From: Bacillus sp. THAF10
Lineage (GTDB): Bacteria > Bacillota > Bacilli > Bacillales > Bacillaceae_I
Length of the DNA: 64,000 bases
Assembly (NCBI RefSeq): GCF_009363695.1
Contig: NZ_CP045403.1
Location: 3,358,501-3,422,500 of the forward strand
Direction of reading: 5' to 3'
Below the pieces are notes generated by a model that saw nothing but the letters and a program-made list of their open reading frames with translations, did no database searches and was not told where the DNA came from. How positions within the stretch are numbered: position 1 is the stretch's first letter; every line of letters starts with the position of its first letter. The translations under genes and the position numbers were made by a program. Of this stretch, positions 38,584 to 48,452 are shown piece by piece.

Positions 38584-38806
38584 GATTCATGGAGTAAGAC
38601 GTTTCTAATTCTTTCTTTCCATGTTTCCCCCTCATAAATTAATTCTTTATCACCACACCACTAATTTTTCTCTTTCACTGTAAAAAGTTATCCAAGCCTG
38701 TGGAAATCACCCAATCATTCCAAGATATCTCGAATATCTTTATATTAAAGATGTTTGTTGTTGGTATAACTCATTCATCTTTAAAGCTAGTAAAGGTGGT
38801 GTCATT

Positions 38807-38902
38807 ATGTCTGGATATGCAAATGGGTTTGCATTAATCGTTGTGCTGTTTATCTTGCTTGTAATTGTTGGAGCTGCAGCAGTTGGTAAATGTGGTTACT
38901 AA
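38807..38902 (+). CDS. YjcZ-family small membrane peptide
   Basis: A 31-aa peptide: [19 protein letters not shown] continues into a single hydrophobic helix and ends CGY. This matches the YjcZ family of tiny sporulation-associated membrane proteins in Bacillus (short Gly/Tyr-rich N-terminus, [11 protein letters not shown] helix). An AAAGGTGG ribosome site precedes the ATG. One of three paralogues within 1.4 kb; function unknown. A terminator follows. Confidence 0.85.
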   Translation: MSGYANGFALIVVLFILLVIVGAAAVGKCGY

Positions 38903-38974: not shown

Positions 38975-39142
38975 ATCATACTTTTCAATACTATATTCAA
39001 AACCTCCCAATTGTGATTAGGCATTCATCTTGGGAAAAAAATAGTATTTTTATAATTCATAATAAAACTTAGACAAACATCCAATCTGTTAATTCAATTG
39101 AAACATACATATATAGTGTACGAAATAAGGAGGTGAAAACTT

Positions 39143-39265
39143 ATGTCTTGTTTTGGATATGGCGGATATGGTTATGGAGGATACGGATACGGTTCAGGTT
39201 TTGCTCTAATCGTTGTCCTTTTCATCCTATTGATCATTGTAGGAGCAATTTGCTTCAAGTGCTAG
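39143..39265 (+). CDS. YjcZ-family small membrane peptide with Gly-Tyr repeats
   Basis: A 40-aa peptide. The N-terminus is rich in [13 protein letters not shown], followed by the same helix [17 protein letters not shown] and a CFKC end. AGGAGGTG lies upstream. A sequence CATACATATA at 39104-39113 fits the -10 element of sporulation sigma factors E/K, consistent with expression during sporulation, though the -35 is not convincing. Confidence 0.85.
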
Positions 39266-39310: not shown

Positions 39311-39841
39311 TTACATCTTTTCCAGTTTCACTCCTAGCCCTTCAGCCATTCTATTTACAAAATTAAAATAAGAAGCAATTTGACATATATCTAGAATTTC
39401 TTGATCAGAACAACCGTTAAATCGTAAATTTTCAACATCTTCATCTCTGATGCTATGTGGTTTTTTTGTCAATTTTACTGCATAATCCAAAATTGCTTTT
39501 GTTTTTTGATCTAATGACACCTCTAAGTAATTTTTCTTAAGATCATTAACAAGCTTTTGATCTTTCGTTAACAAATGGAGCGCCGCCCCATGATGTTCCA
39601 TTCAGTAAAAACATTCATTCTCTGATGACACTACAGTAGCAATCATTTCTCGCGTTACTCTTGGCAAAGGAGATTTTCCAAACATAATTACTTTATAATA
39701 TTCATAATGAGATTCAAGGGATTTAGGATTTAATGAATGCACCTTGAGTATGTTGGCCAATTGACCATTAAATTTGTCATACAGCTCTTTTAGCTTACCT
39801 TCTGCGTCTTTAGGTTCAACTATTTTAATTCTTGCTTCCAC
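39311..39841 (-). CDS. AhpD-like peroxidase-related protein with UGA at the second catalytic Cys (selenoprotein candidate or nonsense pseudogene)
   Basis: One continuous frame of 176 codons interrupted only by TGA at 39604-39602. The N-terminal part ends TVVSSENECFY, then TGA, then MEHHGAALHLLT. In carboxymuconolactone-decarboxylase/AhpD-type peroxidases this site reads C-x-x-C-x-x-H-H. Here C77 is present, the second Cys (position 80) is UGA, and H83-H84 follow in frame. Joined length is the family norm (about 175-180 aa). The ATG after the UGA has no ribosome site, so independent translation of the second half is unlikely. A hairpin follows the UGA (39575-39591). Either selenocysteine is inserted or a Cys codon mutated to stop. 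No Sec genes are visible here. Confidence 0.75.
39575..39591 (-). other. Candidate SECIS hairpin downstream of the in-frame UGA
   Basis: On the minus strand AUGGGGC pairs with GCUCCAU (7 bp, one G-U pair) around the loop GGC. The loop begins 17 nt after the UGA and has G in its first positions, which fits published bacterial SECIS rules as I recall them (loop 16-37 nt from UGA). Short GC-rich hairpins also occur by chance. Confidence 0.45.
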
Positions 39842-39952
39842 ATAATCACCTTCTTGTTAAAGATTTTTATTAAGCTACTAACATTGTAATGAAAACTTAT
39901 TTTTCAGTCAATTTCAATCAATCCATTGTGCTACTAAATAAAATAGAAAAAA

Positions 39953-40097: not shown

Positions 40098-40208
40098 TTA
40101 GTAACCGTAGCCTCCGCCACCGACGAAAGCAGCACCTACAATTATTAGTAGAATAAATAACACTACTACTAATGCAAATCCTCCTGCACCTACATATCCT
40201 CCAGACAT
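40098..40208 (-). CDS. YjcZ-family small membrane peptide
   Basis: A 36-aa peptide starting MSGGYVGAGGFALVVVLFI, with one hydrophobic helix and a Gly/Tyr end (GGGGYGY). GGAGGGTG lies upstream of the ATG. It is the third paralogue in this cluster, on the opposite strand from the other two. The family is linked to sporulation in Bacillus by name; its role is unknown. Confidence 0.85.
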   Translation of the reverse strand: MSGGYVGAGGFALVVVLFILLIIVGAAFVGGGGYGY

Positions 40209-43406: not shown

Positions 43407-43418
43407 CAAAATAATTTA

Positions 43419-43780
43419 TGGAGACGGAGGGAGTCGAACCCTCGTCCAGAAACATCGCCACTTAAGCATCTACGAGTGTAGTCGATATATTAGTGTTTCG
43501 CTGTCAGATCCGCCTATCGACTGGCATCCCTGCAGCTAGCCTGATTGTGCTCTTCCTTTGACCTCAGACGGCGATCTCCGGCGTAGCCCACTAAGAGTGA
43601 GTCCCTGATCCTACCACATGGGCGATGGAGGGAGGAACCGCATTAGACTGTTATTAAGCAGCTAAAGCGAAGTTGTTGTTTTCTTTGCCAGTTATATTGG
43701 CGTTGACGTTTGTAACGAGGACGATCCCCCCGACTCGCAACCTAAGCTCGAACTATCCCTGTCGAATCCGTAACGTCCCC
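43419..43780 (-). ncRNA. ssrA: tmRNA
   Basis: Transfer-messenger RNA of about 362 nt. The 5' end GGGGACG pairs with CGTCTCC near the 3' end as the acceptor stem, and the T-arm sequence GTTCGACTCCC is present. The tag reading frame is at 43689-43654 and encodes GKENNNFALAA followed by two stop codons, with GGC as resume codon. The terminal CCA seems not to be encoded after the discriminator A. It lies directly downstream of smpB, whose product is its partner in rescuing stalled ribosomes. Confidence 0.97.
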
Positions 43781-47892: not shown

Positions 47893-48345
47893 CCTAATCG
47901 AACTCCCTTTCGTTCAATGTCTATAATATATGCAACTTTATATTTTATATCAGATAGGAAAACTTCAAAGGATTATTTTATCACAGTAGCAAGAGAATAG
48001 CTTTTCGAAATACTTGTAAACCTCCTTCGTAGCAGTGTTTACTTTTAAGGGGGTAGGTTTTTATAATGAACGATTAGTAGGAAGGAATCGACAAAAATAG
48101 TTTTTATTCAAAAAATAAACCAACTTCTTTTTTGCCCCATAATGCTATTCAAATTCCGATAAAAAAATCGTAAAACCTATTTATCATACAGGATTATTCT
48201 TAAAAGAATTATTTTTAAATAATTTTACCATTTCGACATTAATCAGCAACATTCCATAAATAGTTAATTTATAATAAATCCAGGGAATAAAAAGGACAAT
48301 AGTTGCAATACCAAAGTTATAGGAAGAACAAAGCATAAAAACAGC
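47893..48345. other. Intergenic region without recognised gene
   Basis: AT-rich DNA between est and the riboswitch. A spaced inverted pair GTAAAC/GTTTAC lies near 48017-48042. A minus-strand 64-codon frame (48184-48378) with a TTG start overlaps the riboswitch and was not accepted. Confidence 0.5.
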
Positions 48346-48452
48346 CAAAGGCAAACTTACTGAAAAGTGAGGACGCAAAGTCTACAGATCTAAGGTTGCG
48401 TAAAAGTGATAGTAAAACCTTTTACCAATTAAGATGGCTGGGCTGCCTGAAA
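48346..48452 (+). promoter_or_regulatory. Class I cyclic-di-GMP riboswitch upstream of sinI
   Basis: The GEMM-I pattern is complete. It begins AAAGGCAAAC, then a hairpin CTTAC/GTGAG with a GAAA-type loop, then the hallmark GGACGCAAAGTC. CTAAGG and a second hairpin GTAAAAG/CTTTTAC follow, and it ends ATGGCTGGGCTGCCTGA. GGCA (48350-48353) pairs with TGCC (48444-48447) to close P1. Directly after it AAATAC-CGAA-GTATTT (48450-48465) forms a hairpin abutting the AGGAGGG ribosome site of sinI, which suggests control of translation. The class is recognised by eye. Confidence 0.88.

Follow-up and report, generated by a model that had tools for sequence, protein, structure and literature searches.

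In Bacillus sp. THAF10, translation of an apparently split gene for an AhpD-like protein very probably continues through the stop codon, placing a selenocysteine (Sec) in the active site of the product. From sequence comparison, we estimate at about 96% the probability that this is a stand-alone AhpD-like selenoprotein gene, whose UGA would be read as Sec by SelB and Sec-tRNA with the help of a hairpin, and whose product would remove peroxides. Annotated as a stop, the UGA leaves a broken or split gene; annotated as Sec, it gives an antioxidant-type enzyme together with its most reactive residue. The gene is located in a stretch of 64,000 nucleotides that was analysed as a whole (the window), in a genome represented by a single contig of 4,087,834 bases (99.95% complete). 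The features identified are summarized in Table 1.

Table 1. Features of the AhpD-like gene, its surroundings and the selenocysteine machinery. Positions are those of the window unless a contig (C1 of the window's genome, G000) or locus (L018) is given.
Feature	Position	Strand	Remarks
AhpD-like (TIGR01926) protein gene	39311..39841	-	176 aa with Sec80; GTG start 39841, TAA stop 39313-39311
In-frame UGA	39602..39604	-	residue 80, taken as selenocysteine; second Cys of CxxC
Cys77 codon	39611..39613	-	position 1 of the CxxU motif
SECIS-like hairpin	39575..39591	-	AUGGGGC-GGC-GCUCCAU; 7 bp, triloop; 17 nt from UGA to loop
Shine-Dalgarno-like AAGGTGA	39846..39852	-	5' of the GTG start; read by eye
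Promoter-like TTGACT-17-TACAAT	39883..39911	-	10/12 matches; consensus match only (6 such sites in the window vs 3.8 in shuffles)
Terminator-like hairpin	39985-39952		ahead of the promoter-like site; consensus match only
YjcZ-like gene	40101-40208	-	PF09680, 40.2 bits
Two more YjcZ-like genes	near 39140-39260 and 38800-38900	-	seen by eye only
tmRNA gene	43416-43780	-	204.9 bits
c-di-GMP-I riboswitch	48340-48450	+	63 bits
Second CMD-family gene	G000:C1:3335230-3335475	-	stop-free, 80.8 bits
tRNA-Sec	C1:1876569-1876661		58.6 bits (gathering 47)
selB	C1:1881730-1883595		377 bits (cut-off 242.25)
selD	L018:11622-12596 and upstream	-	plain ORF list begins selD late, at TTG
SelW-like gene	G000:C1:1884862-1885074 (L018:12863-13075)	+	UGA in CMQ-UGA; just 5' of selA; PF10262, 69.4 bits
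selA	C1:1885184-1886539		569 bits (cut-off 267.9)

Translation of 39841-39311 on the minus strand gave one frame of 176 codons with a single internal stop, TGA at 39604-39602, in the context VSSENECFY*MEHHGAAL, as had been proposed in an earlier, sequence-only reading of this DNA. When read through, the frame scores 144 bits against TIGR01926 (peroxidase-related enzyme; cut-off 81.8), which bears out the proposed assignment to the AhpD-like family with a CxxU motif. Searched separately, the first half reaches 45 bits and the second 80.1 bits, and the two sides of the UGA thus belong to one protein. Against Pfam, the read-through frame matched CMD with 40.9 bits; the genome also holds a second gene of this family. 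Nine frames in the window, the AhpD-like gene included, have one TGA as their sole interruption, preceded by 60 or more codons and followed by 50 or more, and the other eight showed no Pfam family match when read through. A Shine-Dalgarno-like site precedes the GTG start; none was seen by eye ahead of the second half, for which the earlier reading had also stated that there was no ribosome site. The protein reached no selenoprotein-specific model cut-off, only the general cut-off of TIGR01926, and such genes may therefore be missed. The nearest model by name, NF041238 (AhpD_rel_CFYUT, alkylhydroperoxidase-related (seleno)protein), has CFYU in its name, as the window's protein has in its sequence. 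However, the model has 357 positions compared with the 176 residues found here, and at 52.7 bits (cut-off 175) the protein is not a member.

The UGA is shared by all close relatives found. Among 397 genomes of the order, 15 (the window's genome included) matched at an E-value threshold of 1e-20, each with exactly one stop, which was TGA at the identical codon in 15/15. The 14 relatives share 64-77% identity with the window's protein, and the 15 carriers belong to 10 numbered families and 12 genera. In a comparison of the motif, 54 loci yielded 17 with TGA and six with Cys, the remainder being dropped as without a motif match or out-of-frame; the 17 represent 15 distinct genomes, as L037 and L039 were taken as duplicates of L020/G036 and L031/G274. 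In the phylum sample, 12 of 398 genomes matched at 1e-15, namely the window's own, eight with one TGA at the same codon (42-59% identity) and three that were stop-free (L109-L111) with TGC, TGT, and TGT at this position. UGA was thus found at this codon in 8 of the 11 other phylum matches, and in 22 genomes besides the window's in all. Further out, Cys occupies the position in seven homologue rows from other phyla (L038, L040-L043, L045, and L046), obtained in a scan in which one of two patterns demands a Cys codon, so that its ratio of Cys to Sec is biased and these rows were used purely to illustrate Cys at the site. The claim that the TGA falls on the second Cys of C-x-x-C is borne out by these distant homologues. 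An in-frame UGA at the position where homologues have Cys, and its conservation in homologues from other species, are both features expected of a selenoprotein gene.

The UGA is followed directly by an AUG in the window, and the second half alone falls just short of the TIGR01926 cut-off. These two observations could be accommodated by two polypeptides, with termination at the UGA and a restart at the adjacent AUG giving a split AhpD. We regard this as very unlikely: the AUG is replaced by an Ile codon in L030, by a Thr codon in L031 and by Thr, Ile or Gln codons in seven of the eight distant sequences, with the UGA kept throughout, and a break within CxxC would separate the two redox residues. 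A split would also leave unexplained the frozen hairpin and the link to selA described below.

A hairpin resembling a bacterial SECIS element (bSECIS) starts 10 nt after the UGA. The 18-nt block 39592-39575 (+12 to +29 from the UGA) is invariant in the 15 orthologues, and no other invariant run reaches 9 nt within codons -72 to +90, the region covered by the comparison. Among 34 columns with invariant residues of four- or sixfold degeneracy, a single codon is used in 15/15 only at the four hairpin columns (GGG GCG GCG CTC) and at none of the other 30, which use 4.3 codons on average. The same was seen for twofold columns, where 2 of 23 are single-codon, both of them His codons of the hairpin block. 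We consider it hardly credible that a nonsense mutation of recent date, or an error in sequencing, turned the gene of a Cys enzyme into a pseudogene. Although TGA is one base from the TGT and TGC of distant homologues, the same TGA occurs in 22 other genomes, the protein is well conserved on both sides, and the synonymous positions immediately after the TGA do not vary. Sec insertion and recent mutation had both been put forward in the sequence-only reading; the first is clearly favoured by the shared UGA and the machinery genes, and the second is not upheld.

The lowest-energy fold contains the hairpin in 14 of the 15 order sequences, L028 forming a different, longer stem, and in all eight distant phylum sequences, with six or seven pairs. 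Across the 23 sequences (22 distinct), 98.1% of 154 stem cells are paired, compared with 38-57% when the stem is slid along the alignment. Two-sided changes occur at two pairs: seven sequences have CG in place of UA, and one has AU in place of CG. The cells paired, the two-sided cells and the covariation score all lie above 500/500 shuffles; the number of pairs with a two-sided change (reached by 23/500 shuffles) and the further pair types (486/500) do not stand out. The stem is invariant among the 15, so that all covariation comes from the eight distant sequences, where the seven cases of UA to CG may represent one event; on the 3' side this change also alters an amino acid (His to Arg), and the changes follow amino-acid differences. 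The outermost pair is broken in 3 of 22 rows. RNAalifold recovered, unaided, six of the seven stem pairs, with a consensus hairpin of -8.2 kcal/mol. Taken by itself, the hairpin of the window shows no exceptional stability (z -1.59, 12/200 shuffles as good); it reaches -10.9 kcal/mol with its flanks. When the 42-45 nt behind the UGA are folded, 22 of the 23 sequences give energies between -7.8 and -15.9 kcal/mol, and the remaining one (L107, loop AGC) gives -6.4 kcal/mol.

According to its text and Fig. 2 legend, the bSECIS model of PMC13188914 has a loop of 3-9 nt carrying G at positions one and two, a stem of 4-16 bp, a UGA spacing of 16-37 nt and a minimum free energy of at most -7.5 kcal/mol. 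Compared with these published constraints, which L107 misses in energy, the window's hairpin lies within all of them (loop of 3 nt, GGC; 7 bp; 17 nt; -10.9 kcal/mol), and the two agree on the stem, the loop starting with GG and the distance from UGA to loop. A difference from the model is that the hairpin is invariant in sequence as well as in shape in the order's 15 members. The 23 UGA homologues could be used directly to explore which features SelB recognizes in Bacillales. The 13-base core of the hairpin has no second exact copy in the genome; with two mismatches it was found in 12 places, compared with 5 for the reversed control.

The genes for SelA, SelB, SelD, and tRNA-Sec were all found in the genome, as expected for a Sec-decoding organism and as the sequence-only reading had proposed to check. 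The anticodon of the tRNA-Sec is tca (UCA) by ARAGORN, and 17 weaker tRNA matches below the cut-off are probably ordinary tRNAs. In 14 control genomes, tRNA-Sec, selB, and selA exceeded their cut-offs in five, two, and one, respectively; at a loose threshold the tRNA-Sec and selB searches matched in 14/14. selD, named from its sequence and not by model search, is flanked by selB and selA, is encoded on the opposite strand and has its own in-frame UGA (STKAG-UGA-GCKLGP), the region of which showed no plain fit to the bSECIS model. Behind the UGA of the SelW-like gene there is a hairpin, CCGCGA-GUU-UCGCGG, which resembles that of the AhpD-like gene and has the loop GUU. Formate dehydrogenase was rejected as an explanation for the presence of the Sec machinery, since no match to its alpha subunit (TIGR01591) was obtained in the window's genome.

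The presence of a tRNA-Sec with anticodon UCA also speaks against a UGA that encodes another amino acid, by near-cognate read-through as Trp or by a reassigned code, and although some read-through of UGA occurs in Bacillus subtilis, this is exceedingly improbable here, as the homologous residue is Cys and not Trp in the seven non-UGA alignment rows and in L109-L111, and, in the window's mechanical ORF list, 4 of the 37 entries with 200 aa or more terminate in TGA, in line with a normal stop.

The reading of the UGA as Sec is further supported by the distribution of selA. The earlier reading had regarded Sec as out of the ordinary for a genome of the Bacillus type, which does not apply to this order, where selA lies above the cut-off in 180/397 genomes. 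All 15 carriers of the AhpD-like UGA gene have selA (hypergeometric P 5e-6 for 15/15 vs 180/397, with kinship not corrected). None of the 15 further same-genus genomes that were searched has the gene itself; 14 of them are in the order sample, and 11 of these 14 have selA. The gene is thus dispensable. Three weak homologues (30-35% identity) in the same-genus search have no TGA, one having TAA and two being stop-free. The protein tree is poorly resolved (4/19 inner branches starred), and no inference on gene transfer was therefore drawn from it.

SelW-like matches (PF10262, 1e-8) were identified in 164/397 order genomes, all 164 within the 180 with selA and, among the matches listed, with one TGA each. 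The SelW-like Sec gene offers a reason why genomes without the AhpD-like gene keep the Sec machinery, and the patchy presence of the latter gene in such genomes provides a natural test of what Sec contributes to AhpD-type enzymes. Sixteen of the 180 genomes have selA and no SelW-like match at 1e-8 (G025, G061, G070, G075, G117, G139, G197, G221, G237, G264, G282, G299, G312, G325, G339, and G376). G117 carries the AhpD-like UGA gene, and the remaining 15 may hold other selenoproteins. Taken jointly, these data allow a tentative reading, which we consider possible and somewhat short of an even chance, that Sec is retained in much of the order for a small redox selenoproteome, consisting of SelD, a SelW-like protein whose gene is close to selA, and, patchily and in a minority of genomes, the AhpD-like peroxidase, with no formate dehydrogenase in the window's genome, and that the sequence-frozen hairpin reflects either the reading of specific bases by SelB, perhaps a G-U pair and the GGC loop, or a second regulatory role.

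AlphaFold2 with 22 aligned homologues gave an all-helical model (pLDDT 95.2). Foldseek matched it to 2prr with E 7.6e-12 and TM 0.88, and the model has TM 0.83-0.91 to 2prr, 2pfx, 3c1l, and 6k40; the AhpD-like, peroxidase-related 2oyo was also among the best solved matches, and Sestrin2 was a weaker one. On this model the protein would have the AhpD fold. The four Cys-type, peroxidase-related AhpD proteins 2pfx, 3c1l, 2prr, and 6k40 have the same fold, a similar length and 28-37% identity, and the 2pfx and 3c1l alignments show CxxC; the window's protein differs in having Sec for Cys. In Mycobacterium AhpD, peroxide is attacked by the second Cys of the motif. By analogy with the AhpD family, we propose that SelB and Sec-tRNA decode the UGA with the aid of the hairpin to give a predicted all-helical protein with Cys77-Phe-Tyr-Sec80, in which Sec80 would attack the hydroperoxide and Cys77 would resolve the selenenic acid as a Se-S bond. 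Reduction of this bond by a cellular thiol donor would complete the cycle, and the protein would thereby remove peroxides. The structure 6k40 is from Deinococcus radiodurans; according to a review (PMC8945050), a strain of this species without its AhpD-like protein is more sensitive to H2O2, and variants in the two Cys residues of CxxC restore less.

AhpD-like proteins with CxxU have been listed as selenoproteins before. Excerpts of PMC2398784 give 'AhpD-like 1' selenoproteins (COG2128, CxxU) with 299 sequences, those of PMC1794560 give 'AhpD-like (COG2128)' CxxU selenoproteins with two sequences, one of them in Alkaliphilus, and table rows of PMC9312934 and PMC13188914 contain CxxU selenoproteins of the AhpD-like family (TIGR01926). 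As described in these excerpts, they share family and motif with the window's protein, with Sec at the second position, and because CxxU proteins of TIGR01926 are already listed, the Bacillales protein belongs to a known kind. They differ in origin, the listed members coming from marine metagenomes and Alkaliphilus; no Bacillales member was named in the portions of the literature covered, including those of PMC1794560, PMC2398784, PMC5029168, PMC9312934, and PMC13188914. For Bacillales, three selenoproteins belonging to three families are given in PMC1794560, and one of them may be of the AhpD-like family.

When ORFs of 60 aa or more were compared among the 15 neighbourhoods of the gene (~11 kb each), no family besides the gene itself was shared by more than 5, and the genomic context therefore gives no functional hint. 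In the window, the gene has tiny YjcZ-like genes on both sides, and a tmRNA gene and a c-di-GMP-I riboswitch were also identified (Table 1).
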